Shown here: positions 1 through 62,713 of the stretch, piece by piece | How positions within the stretch are numbered: the first letter of the stretch is position 1 | Layout: every line of letters starts with the position of its first letter | DNA from: Caldichromatium japonicum | Lineage (GTDB): Bacteria > Pseudomonadota > Gammaproteobacteria > Chromatiales > Chromatiaceae | DNA: 64,000 bases | Direction: 5' to 3' | NCBI RefSeq assembly: GCF_011290485.1 | Contig: NZ_CP048029.1 | Span: 1-64,000 of the forward strand | Position numbers and translations under genes: made by a program | Notes under the pieces: model-generated | The model's database searches: none | Told to the model about the DNA's origin: nothing | Seen by the model: the letters and a program-made list of their open reading frames with translations, nothing else

Positions 1-1332
1 GTGGCCTTGTGGGAACAGTGCGTCAATCAACTCAAGGCTGAGCTGACATCGGCCGAGTTCAACACCTGGATCTTACCGCTGCAAGCACGGGTCGAGGGGT
101 CTTTGCTTCGGCTTTTAGCACCCAACCGTTTCGTGCTCGATTGGACGCGCACCCATTATAGCGAGCGTCTGCGCGAGCTAAGCCAGCGTTATAGCCAGGG
201 GAGGATCTCTGAGATCCAGTTCGAGATCGGCGGATTTGAGCGGCGAGCAAGCGACCGCGCCCTCGAAGGCCAGATGCGGGGAGGTGAAGCCGATCTCGCC
301 GCGCGCCGCGCCGCCGCGAATCTCAATGCCGATTTTTGTTTCGAGACCTTCGTCGAAGGCAAATCAAACCAATTGGCACGCGCGGCTTCGATCCAGATCG
401 CCCGTAATCCAGGCGCTACCTATAACCCCTTGTTCATCTACGGCGGGGTGGGGCTGGGCAAGACCCATCTGATGCATGCCGTCGGCAACCTGATCCTAGC
501 CTCGCAACCCCAGGCGCGGGTCATCTATCTCCATTCGGAGCGCTTTGTCGCCGAGATGATCAAGGCATTGCAACACAATCGCATCAAAGAGTTCAAAAAG
601 ACCTACCGCTCGGTCAATGCGCTCTTGATCGACGACGTCCAGTTCTTTGCTGGCAAGGAACGCTCGCAGGAGGAGTTTTTCCATACCTTCAACGCGCTTT
701 TGGAGTCACGCCAGCAGATCGTGTTGTCGAGCGATCGTTTTCCCAGGGAGGTCCCCGGGGTCGAGGAACGCCTGCGTTCGCGCTTCGGCTGGGGGCTGAC
801 GGTGGCGATCGATCCTCCCGATCTGGAGACCAGCGTAGCCATCCTGCATTCCAAGGCCAGTTTGCTAAAGGTCAATCTCCCCGAAGATGTAGCCTTTTTC
901 ATCGCCAGTCACATCCGCTCCAACATCCGCGAGCTCGAAGGGGCTTTACGGCGCCTGGTGGCCAATGCCCATTTCACTGGGCGACCCATTACCCTGGACT
1001 TTACCAAACAGGCGCTACGCGACGTACTGGTGGCTCAGGACCGGCAGGTCAGCATCGAAAACATCCAGCGAACGGTCGCCGAATATTACAAGTTGCGCCC
1101 TAGCGATCTACTCTCGGCGAAACGCAGCCGGGTGCTGGCGCGTCCGCGCCAAATAGCGATGGCACTCGCCAAGGAACTGACCCGTCACAGCCTGCCCGAG
1201 ATCGGCCAAGCCTTCGGCGGACGTGATCACACCACCGTCCTGCACGCAACCCGCAAGATCAAAAGCCTACGCGACACCGATCCTGGGATTGCCGAAGACT
1301 ATCACAACCTGCTGCGTCTTCTGACCCTATAA
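1..1332 (+). CDS. dnaA: Chromosomal replication initiator DnaA
   Basis: DnaA binds DnaA boxes at the origin and opens the duplex as an ATP-dependent AAA+ oligomer. The 443-residue protein is slightly shorter than the E. coli one (467). It has the N-terminal domain I (LWEQCVNQL...EFNTWILPL), Walker A GGVGLGKT at residues 148-155, a Walker B around LLIDDVQFF, and the C-terminal DNA-binding signature GGRDHTTV near residue 410. The first base of the window is the GTG start codon. The N-terminus aligns with known DnaA proteins without missing residues, so the gene looks complete, but its promoter lies outside the window. The 78-bp gap to dnaN contains no DnaA box, unlike species whose origin flanks dnaA on both sides. 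Confidence 0.98.
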
Positions 1333-10368: not shown

Positions 10369-10384
10369 TGTTCCACGTGAAACA
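10369..10384. promoter_or_regulatory. parS-like ParB-binding site 2
   Basis: TGTTCCACGTGAAACA matches the parS consensus with one asymmetric base. It lies 40 bp from the IS3-family right end, in the gap before the diheme cytochrome gene. Confidence 0.88.
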
Positions 10385-53494: not shown

Positions 53495-54730
53495 TCAAAT
53501 CTCGGTTTCAATCAGATCGAGCAATAGGCTATCGAGCAGGTCATAGCCCCGCGGGGTCGGCTCGATGCGGCCATGGCCAATCTGTACCAGTCCTTTTTGG
53601 GCGGCGGTCGTCAGCTTGGCAGTGATCCAAGATCCAGGCCGCCCAGTCCTCGCAGCGAAGAGCCCGATCGCAAACCCCTGGGTCAGACGCAGGGCATTCA
53701 ACGCAAACTCGACCACCAGGTCTTCGTCGGTCAGCAAACGGCGCCTGACCTGGGGCCAGGCCGGGCTAGTCCGCAGATATAGCCTGGGGTGTCTGGGTTT
53801 CTCGGTCCGCCAGATCTGCCAAGGATGGGCTGGATCTTGCGGGCATGTCGTCAGCTTGCCGTGCGCTCCTGCCCCAATCCCGAGATAGTCTCCGAACTGC
53901 CAATAGTTGAGATTGTGCCGGCAGATATAGCCTGGACGGGCATAGGCTGAGACCTCGTAGCGCCGGTAGCCAGAGGTCTCTAGGTACTCTGCTCCCGCCC
54001 AGCCCATCTCGGCGATGAGATCGGGGTCGGGTAAGACAGGCGGTCGGGTGCCGAAGACCGTCCCTGGCTCGAGGGTGAGCTGATAATAGGATAGATGCTC
54101 GGGTACAAGGGCAAGGGCTTCATCGAGATCGGCGCGTGCCTGGGCGAGGTCTTGCTCGGGCAGGCCAAACATGAGGTCAAGATTGATGTTGGTAAAACCC
54201 GCAGCCCGCGCCATCTGAACCGCGGCGCGCGCTTCTTCTGGTCCATGGATGCGCCTGAGCTGTCGTAAATGTTTCGCTGACAGGCTTTGTACGCCAAGTG
54301 AGAGTCGATTGACCCCGGCGGCGCGATAGTCGTCGAGGCGTTGGGGATCGAGGGTCCCAGGGTTGGATTCCAGGGTGATCTCGGCATCCGCTGCAAGCTC
54401 ACTCCGGCTGCGGACACCATCAAGCAGTCTGCGGATCGCCCAGCCGGGAAATAGGCTGGGCGTGCCGCCGCCGATGAAGACCGTTTGGATCGGGCGTTGG
54501 GCAGCGGGCGCACTTAACTCTTGCTCCAGATCGGCCAGTAGGCGCTCGCTATAGGCGGCAAATGGCAACTCGCTGGTGGGGTAAGAGTTGAAATCGCAAT
54601 ATGGACACTTGCGGATACACCAGGGCAGATGGATATAGAGCCCGAGTGGGGGCAGTTCCAGGTGATGGGTATTAACTGATCCTGCCTGATCCGCGAATGG
54701 GCAGGCGCAGGGTTCTACCAAGTGCATCAT
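53495..54730 (-). CDS. hemW: Radical SAM heme chaperone HemW
   Basis: HemW inserts heme into target proteins and was earlier confused with coproporphyrinogen oxidase HemN. The 411-residue protein has the radical-SAM motif CIRKCPYC (C-X3-C-X2-C), the SAM-binding GGGTPSL, ESNPGT and the HemW C-terminal domain. The N-terminus has an extra 25 residues with two more cysteines (EPCACPFADQAG) before the core LGLYIHLPW; the true start could be downstream. Its ATG overlaps the uvrD stop by four bases, so the two form an operon. Confidence 0.92.
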   Translation of the reverse strand: MMHLVEPCACPFADQAGSVNTHHLELPPLGLYIHLPWCIRKCPYCDFNSYPTSELPFAAYSERLLADLEQELSAPAAQRPIQTVFIGGGTPSLFPGWAIRRLLDGVRSRSELAADAEITLESNPGTLDPQRLDDYRAAGVNRLSLGVQSLSAKHLRQLRRIHGPEEARAAVQMARAAGFTNINLDLMFGLPEQDLAQARADLDEALALVPEHLSYYQLTLEPGTVFGTRPPVLPDPDLIAEMGWAGAEYLETSGYRRYEVSAYARPGYICRHNLNYWQFGDYLGIGAGAHGKLTTCPQDPAHPWQIWRTEKPRHPRLYLRTSPAWPQVRRRLLTDEDLVVEFALNALRLTQGFAIGLFAARTGRPGSWITAKLTTAAQKGLVQIGHGRIEPTPRGYDLLDSLLLDLIETEI

Positions 54731-56901
54731 CTAGGGGAACAGACGCTTGGGGTCAGACCGGCATAGGCCAGGACCAGGCATTTGATCCCTACGCCGCCCT
54801 TGAAGTCGATATGTAGCCTTGTATCAGGTCCAAATCCCTCGCTGGTTAGCACCACCCCGTCGCCGAATTTGGGATGGCGCACCCACTGGCCAGGACGAAA
54901 GGGGCCTTCCATCCGGGCGGAGGGAGACTGCCCGCGAACTGGGCGCCGGATTAGTTCGCGGCGAACCTCCTCGATCATTTCCATGGGTAGCTCATATAAA
55001 AACCGCGAGGGTAGGGGATATTCCTCGCGTCCATGCAGCCTGCGGCTCTCGGCATGGGTGAGATAGAGCTCGCGCATGGCGCGGGTGATCCCGACGTAGC
55101 ACAGCCGTCTTTCCTCTTCGAGACGTTTGGGGTCATCGAGCGAGAGGCTATGGGGAAAGAGCCCCTCCTCTAGGCCTACCAGAAAGACCACGGGAAACTC
55201 GAGCCCCTTGGCGCTATGCAGGGTCATGAGCTGGACGCTGTCGGTGAAGGGTTCGGCCTCGGCCTCGCCGGACTCAAGGGCGGCATGAGCCAGGAAATCA
55301 TTGAGGAGCTGGGGTTGGGGGCCTGGCTGTTCCTGCTCAAAACGCTGGGCGGTCTCGATGAGTTGCTCTAGGTTTTCGATCCGGTCTTGCCCTCGTCCGT
55401 CTTTGTTTTCCCTGAAGTGCTCCATCAGACCGGTGCCCTCGATGGCATAGCGGCATATCTCGGCGAGCGTGCGTTCTGTCAAGGCCCTCCTTTGCCCCTC
55501 TATCGTTGTAAAAAATCCCTGTAAGGTCTGTACTGCACGTGCCCCGAGTGCACCGCTGTTGATGAGCTTGCGGGCCGCTCGCCAGAGTGAGAGACCATCG
55601 GGACGCGTCGCTTCACGGATGAGCTCGAGCGTGCGCTGACCGATCCCGCGTGGTGGGCGATTGACGATCCGGTCGAATGCCTGATCATCATCCGGGTTGG
55701 CGATCAGGCGAAGATAGGCCATGGCATCGCGGATCTCGGCGCGCTCGAAGAACCTTAGCCCGCCATAGACCCGATAGGGGATGCCGGTCTGGATGAGCGC
55801 CTCTTCTAACGGTCGCGATTGGGCAGTGGTTCGGTAAAGGATGGCGCAGTCGATGTAGGCGTAACCTTGGGCGTAGAACCACTGGATACGCTCGGCAACG
55901 AATTGGGCTTCGTCGATCTCATTGAAGGCGGTATAGAGCCGGATTGGGGCACCTGCTTCGCCCTGGGTCCAGAGTGTCTTGCCGAGCCGTCCGGCATTGT
56001 GGGCGATCAGGACATTGGCCGCATTCAGGATATTGCCGGTCGAGCGATAGTTTTGCTCGAGTCGGATCAGGCGCGCCCTTGGATAGTCCCGCTGGAAGGA
56101 TTGGATATTCTCGATCTGCGCCCCGCGCCAACCATAGATCGACTGATCGTCGTCGCCGACAACGAAGAGATGATTCTCTTCGCCGGCAAGCAGCCTCAGC
56201 CAGGCGTATTGGATGGCATTGGTGTCCTGAAACTCATCGACCAGGAGATGATTGAAGCGCTGCCGGTAGTGCTCAAGTAGATCTCGGCGCTCGCGTAGAA
56301 GCTCGAGCGTATAAAGCAGCAGGTCGGCAAAGTCCACCATCCCAGATTTGATCCGCGCCGTTTCATAGTTCTGGTAGAGCTCGATGAACCTGTCTTGGAT
56401 GAAGTCCCCGCGGGCGACGAGGTGTTGTGGCCTTCGTCCCTCGTCCTTTTGCCGATTGATAAACGCCTGGATCTGGCCAGGCGGCCAGCGCGACTCATCG
56501 AGCTGCATCTCCTTGAGCAAGCGCTTGATCAAACGCAGTTGCTCATCGCTGTCCAGGATCTGGAAATGCTGGGGCAGCCCTGCCTCTTGCCAATGGGCAC
56601 GTAAGAAACGATGTGCAAGCCCGTGAAAGGTCCCGATCCAGGCCCCGCTGAGCGCAGTATCCAACAGGTTGTCGAGCCTTGCTCGCATCTCGCGCGCTGC
56701 CTTGTTGGTAAAGGTCACCGCAAGGATTGACCAGGAAGGGGTTCCCTGTTGGATCAACCATGCAATCCGTTGGGTCAGAACCCTGGTCTTGCCTGAACCT
56801 GCACCTGCAAGGACCAGTATGTGACTCGATCGGCTGGCGACCGCCTCGCGCTGGGCTGGATTGAGTAGGTCAAACGACTGGATGTTGTTCATGGGTGTCA
56901 T
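54727..56901 (-). CDS. uvrD: DNA helicase II (UvrD/PcrA family)
   Basis: UvrD unwinds DNA in mismatch and excision repair. The 724-residue protein has the SF1A motifs in order: Q-motif LNPAQREAV, Walker A LAGAGSGKTRVLTQR, TFTNKAAREMR (Ia), DEFQDTNAIQYAW (II), VGDDDQSIYGWRGA (III), LEQNYRSTGNIL (IV), TLHSAKGLEFPVVFLVGLEEGLFPH (V) and EERRLCYVGITRAM (VI). A Tudor-like C-terminal domain follows (WVRHPKFGDGVVLTSEGFGPDTRLHIDF). The start is placed at ATG 56901; ATG 56892 and TTG 56910 are also possible. The promoter overlaps the origin-like region. Confidence 0.94.
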   Translation of the reverse strand: MTPMNNIQSFDLLNPAQREAVASRSSHILVLAGAGSGKTRVLTQRIAWLIQQGTPSWSILAVTFTNKAAREMRARLDNLLDTALSGAWIGTFHGLAHRFLRAHWQEAGLPQHFQILDSDEQLRLIKRLLKEMQLDESRWPPGQIQAFINRQKDEGRRPQHLVARGDFIQDRFIELYQNYETARIKSGMVDFADLLLYTLELLRERRDLLEHYRQRFNHLLVDEFQDTNAIQYAWLRLLAGEENHLFVVGDDDQSIYGWRGAQIENIQSFQRDYPRARLIRLEQNYRSTGNILNAANVLIAHNAGRLGKTLWTQGEAGAPIRLYTAFNEIDEAQFVAERIQWFYAQGYAYIDCAILYRTTAQSRPLEEALIQTGIPYRVYGGLRFFERAEIRDAMAYLRLIANPDDDQAFDRIVNRPPRGIGQRTLELIREATRPDGLSLWRAARKLINSGALGARAVQTLQGFFTTIEGQRRALTERTLAEICRYAIEGTGLMEHFRENKDGRGQDRIENLEQLIETAQRFEQEQPGPQPQLLNDFLAHAALESGEAEAEPFTDSVQLMTLHSAKGLEFPVVFLVGLEEGLFPHSLSLDDPKRLEEERRLCYVGITRAMRELYLTHAESRRLHGREEYPLPSRFLYELPMEMIEEVRRELIRRPVRGQSPSARMEGPFRPGQWVRHPKFGDGVVLTSEGFGPDTRLHIDFKGGVGIKCLVLAYAGLTPSVCSPR

Positions 56902-56920
56902 TCTAAACAAGCCGCATCCC

Positions 56921-56936
56921 TATCACTACAGTGATA
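56921..56936. promoter_or_regulatory. Operator-like palindrome upstream of uvrD
   Basis: TATCACTACAGTGATA is a perfect palindrome with 7-bp arms and a 2-bp centre, 20 bp before the uvrD start. Its size and position suggest a repressor operator for uvrD or a site in the adjacent origin region. It does not match the LexA box. Confidence 0.45.
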
Positions 56937-57253
56937 GAGATTTTAGTTAATAATAGAGGTGCTCCCTTGCTGTGGATAACTTTTTAAAAGTAAATTTAAA
57001 AACAATTACTTAGATTGATTTTTGCTTGTGGATAAGCCTGTGGATGAAATCGGCCTTCCTGTTTGCTGCACAGGTTAATCACAGCCTATCCACAGGGTTA
57101 TCCACAGGCTTATCCACAGGGAACTGGCTGCCAAGTCATTGATTGACAATGGATGCTTAAGAGAGGGTCAGGACAGCATCGGGCTTTAGGTATCGAGGCC
57201 ATCGTTGTGTAAAATGATTGACCCTTGGTTTCGTCCATCTTAGAGCCCGCTTC
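56937..57253. other. oriC: Candidate chromosome origin (oriC): DnaA-box cluster and AT-rich element
   Basis: The uvrD-hemE gap contains four perfect DnaA boxes (TTATCCACA): 56971-56979 and 57027-57035 on the minus strand, 57098-57106 and 57110-57118 on the plus strand. Two one-mismatch boxes lie at 57039-57047 (minus) and 57086-57094 (plus), and a weaker match at 57075-57083. The boxes face each other in two groups. About 56937-57026 is strikingly AT-rich (runs such as TTTTTAAAAG and AAATTTAAAAAC), fitting a DNA-unwinding element. An origin next to hemE is known from Caulobacter. No gene lies here. Confidence 0.8.
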
Positions 57254-58318
57254 ATGACACCGCTGCACAATGACACCTTTCTGCGCGCCCTGCTGCGCGA
57301 GCCTGTTGACTACACACCGGTCTGGATGATGCGCCAGGCGGGGCGCTATCTGCCCGAATATCGCGCCACCCGTGCGCGTGCCGGAAGCTTCATGACGCTG
57401 TGCAAGACCCCGGAGCTCGCCTGCGAGGTCACTCTACAGCCCCTTGAGCGCTATCCCCTCGATGCCGCGATCCTCTTCTCGGACATCCTGACGGTCCCGG
57501 ATGCTATGGGACTTGGGCTCTATTTCGCAGAGGGCGAGGGGCCGCATTTCGAGCGCCCGGTGCGTACCGCAGCCGACATCGAGCGCCTCCCCGTCCCCGA
57601 TCCAGAAGCAGAACTGCGCTATGTGCTGGATGCGGTCTCAACCATCCGCCAGGCGCTCAACGGGCGCGTACCCCTGATCGGTTTTTCCGGCAGCCCCTGG
57701 ACGCTTGCGACCTATATGGTCGAGGGCGGGGCCTTGAAGAACTTCGCCCGCATCAAGGCGATGCTCTTCGACCAGCCTGTACTGCTCCATCGCCTGCTCG
57801 CCAAGGTCGCGGATGCCGTGACCGTCTACCTCAATGCCCAGATCGCGCGCGGGGCGCAGGCAGTCATGATCTTTGATACCTGGGGCGGGGCCTTGGCGCC
57901 GGCCAATTATCGCGAGTTCTCGCTCGCCTATATGCAGCGGGTGGTCGAGGGTCTGAACCGCGAATCCGAGGGGCGGCGCGTGCCCGTGATCCTGTTTACC
58001 AAAAACGGCGGTCAGTGGCTCGCAGAGATGGCCAAGACCGGCTGCGATGCCTTGGGCGTGGATTGGACCACGGATCTTGCTGATGCCCGCCGCTTGGTCG
58101 AGGATCAGGTGGCGCTCCAGGGTAACCTGGATCCTTGCGTGCTCTATGCCTCGCCCGAGCGCATCCGCGCAGAGGTGGCGCGGGTGCTCTCCAGTTACGG
58201 GCCGGGCTCGGGCCATATCTTCAACCTTGGGCATGGGATCACCCAGGATGTCGATCCGGAGCATCCGGCGGTGATGGTCGAGGCAGTGCATACCCTAAGT
58301 CGCGCCTATCATCCGTGA
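57254..58318 (+). CDS. hemE: Uroporphyrinogen decarboxylase
   Basis: HemE removes four carboxyl groups from uroporphyrinogen III to give coproporphyrinogen III, on the path to heme and bacteriochlorophyll. The 354-residue protein has the conserved [16 protein letters not shown] near the N-terminus (active-site Arg residues), [48 protein letters not shown] and [15 protein letters not shown] 57254 fits the family start; the frame extends back to 57218. The candidate oriC lies immediately upstream, so hemE transcription would run out of it. Confidence 0.96.
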
Positions 58319-60914: not shown

Positions 60915-62608
60915 CCGGTGCACGGCAAGCCCCGTCGTTGAGGGCGGGGATGGATAGCGCCCGCTGTCGTCGCGTTTTCCGCTTAGGTTGGCGTCTGCTG
61001 CTGTTCGATGTATTGGCGCACGATGGAAATTGGTGCGCCGCCACAACTTGAGGCGAAGTAGGACGGCGACCACAGCACGCCCTTCCAGTAGTGTTTCTGG
61101 ATGTCGGGTTGTTCCTTGCGCAGCAGGCGGCTGGATGCGCCTTTGAGGCTGTTCACGAGGCTGGAGACGGCAACCTTGGGCGGGTACTCTACCAACAGGT
61201 GGACATGATCGTCCTCGCCGTCCATCTTGATCAGTTGTGCTTCAAAATCCGTGCAGACGTTGGTGAAGATCGTTCGCAGTTGTGCGATGGCATCGCCGTT
61301 GAACACATTGCGGCGATGGTCATCGACCAAGAGACTGATTGAGCTATGCAACGGCTTCAAGCCTTCAAATTTGAGTTGAAGCCCAACGGCGATCAGGCGC
61401 GCGACCTGCGCCGCTTCGCGGGGTCGTGCCGCTTCGTCTACAATCGGGCGCTGGCGTTGCAACAGGAGCGGTATGCGACCGGCGAGAAGAAACTCGGGTA
61501 TGCCGATCTGTGCAAGGCGCTGACCGCGTGGAAGGCCGATCCCCCGACCGCCTGGCTTGGCGAGGCTCCCGCTCAAGCCTTGCGGCAGTCTCTCAAGGAT
61601 CTGGACCAGGCCTACGCCAACTTTTTCGCCAAGCGCGCCGGCTTCCCGCGCTTCAAGAAGAAAGGGCAATCCGACAGTTTCCGTTACTCCGATTCGGAAA
61701 AAATCAAACTCGACCAGGCCAACAGCCGTATCTTCCTGCCGAAACTTGGCTGGCTGAGGTATCGCAACAGCCGTGAGGTGCTTGGCGTGGTGAAGAACGT
61801 CACCGTGAGCCAGTCCGGCGGCAAGTGGTTCGTGAGTATCCAGACCGAGCGCGAGGTAGAGCGGCCCATCCCGCAGGGTGGCGCAGTCGGCATCGACATG
61901 GGCATTGTCCGCTTCGCCACCTTGAGCGACGGGACGGTCTACGCCCCGCTCAATAGTTTCAAGCGGCATGAGACGCGCTTGCGCAAGGCGCAACAGGCGC
62001 TCTCCCGCAAGGTGAAATTCAGCAACAACTGGAAGAAGGCGAAAGCCAGAGTCCAGCGCATTCATTCCCGCATCCGTAATGCCCGCCGCGACTTCCTACA
62101 TAAGACCTCGACCGCGATCAGCAAAAACCACGCGATGGTGTGTATCGAGGACTTGCAGGTAGGGAACATGACCAAGTCGGCGGCTGGGACAATCGAACAG
62201 CCGGGCAGAAACGTTCGGGGCAAGTCTGGCCTAAACAAGTCCATTCTCGACCAGGGCTGGTTTGAGTTTCGCCGGCAACTGGACTACAAGCTGGCATGGC
62301 GGGGTGGCTGGCTCATTGCCGTGCCGCCGCAGAACACAAGCCGCACCTGCCCGTGCTGCGGCCATGTGTCGGCGGACAACCGCCAGACGCAAGATCGGTT
62401 CGAGTGCGTGGAATGCGGTTTTGAGGAAAACGCCGATGTGGTCGGCGCGATCAATGTGCTAAGGGCGGGACACGCCCGGTTCGCCTGTGAAGTGAGCGAT
62501 GCAATCGGGCCCCAGCAGCAAGAACCCACCGAAGCGGTTCAGGAGCGCTTCAATACCACTCCTGAGCGCCGTTGGAATCCTCGACCTTCAGGCCGGGGAG
62601 GATGTCAA
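60915..62608 (+). mobile_element. IS200/IS605-family element with tnpA and tnpB
   Basis: The left end has the subterminal hairpin CCCCGTC...GGCGGGG (about 60929-60948). The right end has CCTCGACC/GGCCGGGG (about 62579-62597), followed by GGATGTCAA. The two genes face outward from a shared start region near 61346, the IS605 layout. Removing 60915-62608 rejoins GTGAC to CTTTCCC and restores a Uma2 C-terminus, so the boundary is supported within one base. The target motif upstream is GGTGAC, and insertion makes no duplication, as expected for this family. Confidence 0.85.
60983..61351 (-). pseudogene. tnpA: IS200/IS605 transposase TnpA, degenerate 5' end
   Basis: The Y1 transposase keeps its catalytic core: the HUH motif in DDHVHLLVEYPP and the tyrosine in IVRQYIEQQ. 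The C-terminus (YWKGVLWSPSYFASSCGGAPISIVRQY) is intact to the TAA at 60983. The N-terminus departs from the family: where related proteins have a strand like HLVFVTKYRRNVF, this one has SISLLVDDHRRNVF, and no ATG is available. TTG 61351 is the only simple start and would overlap tnpB by six bases. It is probably inactive. The antisense reading frame that continues to 62065 is a shadow of tnpB. Confidence 0.7.
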
Positions 62609-62713
62609 CTTTCCCTTGCATGCGCTGTGGACCGATTGAGCGTGAATCAAACGCGGCGCTTGAGGGCATGCACCAAATCCTTCAGGGTTTCGGGGCCCAC
62701 CTTCCCCCCATAG
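61346..62713 (+). CDS. tnpB: RNA-guided nuclease TnpB (IS605), C-terminus reading past the element
   Basis: TnpB is the compact, omega-RNA-guided RuvC nuclease ancestral to Cas12. The 455-residue frame has the N-terminal helix-turn-helix region (ELKPNGDQARDLRRFAGSCRFVYNRAL), RuvC residues D184 (GIDMGIVRF), E269 (VCIEDLQVGN) and D364 (NADVVGAINVL), and the zinc ribbon CPCC...CVEC (C335, C338, C354, C357). All catalytic residues are present. After QEPTEAV (about residue 395) the frame differs from relatives, which end in an AVGIP...LQAGEDV tail encoded by the right-end hairpin in another frame. Here the ORF runs 105 bp beyond the element and overlaps the 3' end of the transglutaminase gene, suggesting a frameshift in the tail. 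Confidence 0.85.
   Translation: MQRLQAFKFELKPNGDQARDLRRFAGSCRFVYNRALALQQERYATGEKKLGYADLCKALTAWKADPPTAWLGEAPAQALRQSLKDLDQAYANFFAKRAGFPRFKKKGQSDSFRYSDSEKIKLDQANSRIFLPKLGWLRYRNSREVLGVVKNVTVSQSGGKWFVSIQTEREVERPIPQGGAVGIDMGIVRFATLSDGTVYAPLNSFKRHETRLRKAQQALSRKVKFSNNWKKAKARVQRIHSRIRNARRDFLHKTSTAISKNHAMVCIEDLQVGNMTKSAAGTIEQPGRNVRGKSGLNKSILDQGWFEFRRQLDYKLAWRGGWLIAVPPQNTSRTCPCCGHVSADNRQTQDRFECVECGFEENADVVGAINVLRAGHARFACEVSDAIGPQQQEPTEAVQERFNTTPERRWNPRPSGRGGCQLSLACAVDRLSVNQTRRLRACTKSFRVSGPTFPP
62530..62624 (+). ncRNA. Putative omega-RNA region (right end plus guide)
   Basis: In IS605 elements the TnpB guide RNA overlaps the 3' end of tnpB, ends with the right-end hairpin and continues about 16 nt into flanking DNA, which is the guide. 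Here the hairpin lies at about 62579-62597, the element ends at TCAA (62605-62608), and the guide would be CTTTCCCTTGCATGCG (62609-62624), derived from the Uma2 C-terminal codons. The 5' boundary is arbitrary. Confidence 0.5.

Follow-up and report, generated by a model that had tools for sequence, protein, structure and literature searches.

The intergenic region between uvrD and hemE of Caldichromatium japonicum is probably the chromosomal replication origin (oriC) of this organism, relocated in its clade. The proposal is built on motif content and on comparison among relatives, and our confidence in it is kept at good rather than high, since the chromosome-scale signals fall short of confirming a uvrD-linked origin. 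Throughout, the window denotes the whole stretch of DNA that was analysed, positions 1-64,000 of the 2,989,870 bp chromosome (genome G000). A literature search returned neither an origin at hemE or uvrD in the Chromatiaceae nor any study of a Chromatiaceae origin.

DnaA boxes and accompanying elements between uvrD and hemE

The perfect DnaA box was taken as TTATCCACA and matches were counted at up to one mismatch. The window contains 17 such matches, compared with 6.3 ± 2.5 in shuffled sequence (0 of 100 shuffles reach 17), and 4 of the 15 perfect boxes on the chromosome fall inside 148 bp of the uvrD-hemE gap, an array far beyond chance. Moreover, the 90-bp tract from 56938 is 74% AT against 40% for the window, a value matched by fewer than 0.01% of 90-bp windows. 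A box scan from -160 to +224 kb recovered this intergenic region as the only DnaA-box cluster. The features referred to below are as follows.

1-1332, plus strand: dnaA (gene call)
1333-1398, unstranded: dnaA-dnaN gap, presumed ancestral origin site, 66 bp with no boxes
2529-2544, unstranded: parS-like site with 1 mismatch; others start at 10369, 10412, 14696 and 14921
54727-56892, minus strand: uvrD (Pfam UvrD-helicase), the conserved neighbour of the array
56893-57253, unstranded: intergenic region, proposed oriC, between the uvrD ATG (56892, minus strand) and the hemE ATG (57254, plus strand)
56944-56961, plus strand: DnaA-trio-like tract 3'-GTG-GAG-ATA-ATA-ATT-GAT-5', separated from the first box by a 9-nt spacer
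56971-56979, minus strand: perfect DnaA box in an R1-like position, adjoining the trio tract
56980-57026, unstranded: AT-rich tract, candidate unwinding element by composition only (83% AT over 47 bp)
57027-57035, minus strand: perfect DnaA box (motif match)
57039-57047, minus strand: one-mismatch DnaA box TCATCCACA (motif match)
57086-57094, plus strand: one-mismatch DnaA box CTATCCACA, first of three boxes at a 12-bp period
57098-57106, plus strand: perfect DnaA box, second at the 12-bp period
57110-57118, plus strand: perfect DnaA box, third at the 12-bp period
57132-57144, minus strand: IHF-like site CAAGTCATTGATT (consensus match)
57254-58318, plus strand: hemE (Pfam URO-D), a neighbour in most, not all, clade members

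The first-pass annotation of this DNA had reported four perfect boxes in two facing groups, two near-matches and a 90-bp AT-rich tract, and all of these lie where it placed them. The elements that it assigned to the uvrD-hemE gap are likewise present, and only its extent (56937-57253) was drawn slightly narrow, given that uvrD probably starts at 56892. Read from uvrD to hemE, the order is trio tract, spacer, minus-strand box, AT-rich tract, two minus-strand boxes, three plus-strand boxes and IHF-like site. Judged by its motifs, the array has the full anatomy of an oriC: an AT-rich tract, DnaA-trios, a short spacer, opposed box groups and an IHF-like site. A few kb past hemE, at 60983-62713 of the window, lies an IS200/IS605-type element with divergent Y1 transposase and OrfB/TnpB genes.

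This layout resembles E. coli oriC (mnmG-mioC), where the K-12 record shows an AT-rich side followed first by a TGTGGATAA box and further on by opposed TTATCCACA boxes; both also have an IHF site, a position away from dnaA and a short spacer from the AT-rich tract to the first box. Unlike E. coli oriC, the array is situated at uvrD, with mnmG ~9 kb away (66.6 kb), and no GATC cluster was found in it. Moreover, E. coli K-12 oriC yields only two trios by the same trio score. The order of box, spacer and trios is that of the basal unwinding system of Bacillus subtilis, which has been proposed to be general (PMC6669920). The mean trio score of the 11 genomes carrying the array is 9.3, compared with 4.8 ± 0.6 for shuffled flanks (maximum 6.75) and a mean of 2.9 beside 96 one-mismatch boxes elsewhere. 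The trio tract stands next to the first box and scores far above the shuffles, in keeping with the basal unwinding system. The two have in common a box (tandem in most relatives), a short spacer and a trio repeat; they differ in locus and in box number, and the trios of the window copy are degenerate and its spacer is 9 nt long. In most relatives the spacer is 4 nt and the trio end is clearer, as in G002, where TAGTAGTAATAAGGGC is followed by two tandem boxes. The tract is strong in most array genomes and weak in G007 and G030, and the IHF-like site is kept in 7 of the 11, at the same place in six and shifted in G029.

Gain at uvrD and loss at dnaA-dnaN within one clade

The array was found upstream of uvrD in G000, G003, G001, G004, G005, G002, G007, G029, G025, G033 and G030. 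In a tree of hemE, uvrD and dnaA proteins these 11 genomes form one clade of the Chromatiaceae, with G006 nested within it. No array stood upstream of uvrD in any other Chromatiaceae or outgroup genome examined, nor at any of 80 further gammaproteobacterial uvrD loci. The inner opposed boxes are 69-71 bp apart in most genomes close to that of the window. In G001 and G007 hemE has moved away and the array is still at uvrD; the uvrD of G007 (2603346-2605304) contains an in-frame TGA. Conversely, the near outgroup G011 has adjacent uvrD and hemE with no array, and still has boxes at dnaA-dnaN. Therefore, hemE is not the defining neighbour; on these comparisons it is incidental, and the site would be better called a uvrD-linked origin.

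These data also bear on the Caulobacter-type arrangement that had been suggested from the hemE adjacency. Ori-Finder counts dnaA, dnaN, hemE and gidA among its indicator genes for origins in general (PMC2275245). Adjacency to hemE is all that the array has in common with the Caulobacter-type origin, its own partner being uvrD and hemE being dispensable, and on gene order the parallel is a coincidence. What stands of the earlier interpretation is an origin away from dnaA, which is well supported by anatomy, conservation in the clade and the loss at dnaA-dnaN; the link to hemE and Caulobacter is not supported.

The constant position directly upstream of uvrD, between divergent genes, could also be expected of a DnaA-responsive regulatory region for uvrD (and hemE). 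We regard this as very improbable, because the array persists in G001 and G007 although hemE is gone from there, which excludes hemE control as its general role, and because such a region would leave the trio tract, the AT-rich tract, the opposed groups and the loss of boxes at dnaA-dnaN unexplained.

That loss concerns the presumed ancestral site. In most other Chromatiaceae the dnaA-dnaN gap is ~210 bp long and 67-76% AT, with opposed boxes 45-46 bp apart; genomes of this type include G010, G017, G019 and G027, together with the outgroup G047. These gaps resemble the array in having opposed boxes beside an AT-rich tract and differ from it in locus, length and box spacing (~70 bp in the array), and no consistent trio tract was found in them. 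In the array clade the gap measures 62-91 bp (179 bp in G025 and G030) and 40-62% AT, with no boxes except in G030. The absence of a DnaA box from the dnaA-dnaN gap of C. japonicum, already remarked on in the first-pass annotation, was borne out over its 66 bp. Boxes at dnaA-dnaN are also reduced in four genomes outside the array group (G028, G022, G024 and G054). The gain of an origin-like site at uvrD and the loss of one at dnaA-dnaN on the same branch form the strongest argument that the function moved. G030 retains an opposed box pair in the dnaA-dnaN gap (51% AT), 1339-1394 bases past the dnaA start at 2815589, in addition to its uvrD array, and by its motifs is a possible two-origin intermediate keeping remnants of both sites.

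Within the clade, G006 has no array upstream of uvrD, and no dnaA match was found in its assembly, which is given as 99% complete; judged by eye from its sequence, the gene that precedes dnaN where dnaA would be expected is isocitrate-dehydrogenase-like. Unless an assembly gap is responsible, dnaA disappeared along with the array, which would be the expected fate of an element that depends on DnaA. In G026, whose assembly is likewise given as 99% complete, no dnaA was detected and dnaN sits between rnpA-like and gyrB-like genes. Both cases may be loss of dnaA, or assembly gaps.

Rival clusters and chromosome-scale signals

A combined scan for boxes and AT content over 160-400 kb around dnaA put the uvrD array first in each of five genomes, and across these stretches no second box cluster near dnaA was comparable, except the dnaA-dnaN remnant of G030. 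No other oriC candidate was seen in the scanned stretch of the window genome. Apart from the array and the weaker remnant of G030, no origin candidate could be recognised near the parS region. Box density upstream of dnaA, which the first-pass annotation had singled out as a check lying outside the window, amounts to a single perfect box at 2,989,754 in the rpmH-dnaA gap, and nothing denser occurs near dnaA. Since a lone box is found upstream of dnaA across most of the Chromatiaceae, it is more likely a promoter element of dnaA than an origin.

Two further sites were considered and set aside. An origin at mnmG, as in E. coli, was rejected as there is no second box cluster at that gene (66.6 kb). 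The second site, at 1121025-1121221 of G000, upstream of a typA/bipA-like gene, consists of two perfect tandem boxes (12-bp period, as in the array), a one-mismatch box and an AT-rich tract. It was rejected as a rival origin, its tandem boxes being in a single orientation and far from the origin region; on its motifs it is possibly a DnaA-titration site. Perfect tandem box pairs at a 12-bp period are also found in G003 and G028.

The GC-skew minimum that had been looked to as a test of an origin at the array did not appear cleanly there in any genome examined. For the window genome, cumulative GC, k-mer and codon skew all reach their lowest values at 40-44 kb, a position between the two candidates that is closer to the array than to dnaA; the curve itself is flat and noisy. 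The KOPS (GGGNAGGG) switch lies left of dnaA. GC skew alone was discarded as an origin test, being weak (about 0.01-0.03) and confounded by gene direction. KOPS are polar along the chromosome arms. In the interval from dnaA to the array, their polarity is the one expected if replication began on the dnaA side in 5/5 genomes; the signal is strong in G001 (0 forward, 13 reverse) and in G007, and weak in G000, G005 and G030. The KOPS score has an accuracy of 72%, and all five genomes are drawn from the array clade. Orientation-corrected codon scores reached 62% cross-validated accuracy on 10-kb windows and were mixed between genomes. Combining KOPS and codon bias raised this to 76% (cross-validated, 10-kb windows) and gave logits for the array of -1.4 (G000), +1.0 (G005), -1.2 (G030), -12.7 (G001) and -14.0 (G007). 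Strand polarity is uninformative in the ancestral arrangement of G000, G005 and G030 and favours the dnaA side in the recently rearranged G001 and G007. As only these two had the array separated from hemE by rearrangement, lagging composition may account for their polarity. In G005 the switch point is shared by GC skew, k-mer skew and KOPS; it lies 85-105 kb left of dnaA, at a place with no box cluster. It coincides with neither candidate, so recent rearrangement probably disturbs the KOPS signal, and the switch point suggests a recent inversion near the origin.

The polarity of G005, in agreement with neither site, and the two box sets of G030 would also fit two origins in use, or a choice that varies by species, between the uvrD array and a residual origin near dnaA. 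Most clade members, the window genome included, lack boxes at dnaA-dnaN, and we consider such an arrangement extremely unlikely.

Sites resembling parS occur within 15 kb of dnaA in 8/8 genomes tested, and the array lies 24-157 kb from dnaA, on either side depending on the genome; the distance is about 97 kb in G001 and 157 kb in G007. parS marks the origin region and need not touch oriC. Measured from the single dif-like site of each genome, the clockwise arm is 45-58% from the array and 46-59% from dnaA; replichore balance is closer for dnaA in 5/6 genomes, weakly. Changes in syntenic-block distance from the array and from dnaA show small differences only.

The position of parS and the KOPS polarity of G001 and G007 point to dnaA, as would be the case if the array were a DnaA-control locus (datA- or DARS-like titration, inactivation or reactivation) and the true origin lay near dnaA with poorly recognisable DnaA sites. 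The array shares a DnaA-box cluster and an IHF-like site with such loci; datA and DARS2 have box clusters with IHF sites, and datA is near oriC (PMC4585315). However, datA and DARS leave oriC in place, whereas the array clade lost its usual origin: except for the G030 remnant, no box cluster or box-bearing AT-rich window occurs near dnaA in the clade, and a control locus would not explain why the dnaA-dnaN gap was stripped of boxes on the same branch. Moreover, the AT-rich trio tract beside a box is an unwinding feature that is not among the datA and DARS parts described in PMC4585315. A control locus is therefore unlikely, and a relocated origin at uvrD remains our preferred reading.

A probable relocated origin in the Chromatiaceae

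For the elements, their conservation, their restriction to one clade and the loss at dnaA-dnaN, we propose the following model. The origin would have arisen once at the uvrD flank, at the base of one Chromatiaceae clade, replacing the dnaA-dnaN origin, whose gap would then have lost its boxes and AT-rich tract. DnaA-ATP is predicted to bind the box beside the trio tract and to extend as a filament onto the trios, thereby melting the AT-rich DNA towards uvrD. Further DnaA may come from the opposed boxes nearer hemE, which IHF bending would bring close; the helicase would then be loaded and replication would initiate at the gap. More tentatively, a single jump by way of a two-origin state, still seen in G030, might have left dnaA and parS behind, with origin and centromere-like sites up to 157 kb apart and shifting, and G006 may have lost both dnaA and the array; we put this forward as a possibility that is less likely than not.

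On this reading, the first position of these chromosomes as numbered from dnaA is probably not where replication starts. It is uncommon for an origin to change its neighbouring genes, and few accounts exist of how such moves happen. With the states before, during and after the move represented in one family, the steps of origin relocation would become directly testable.
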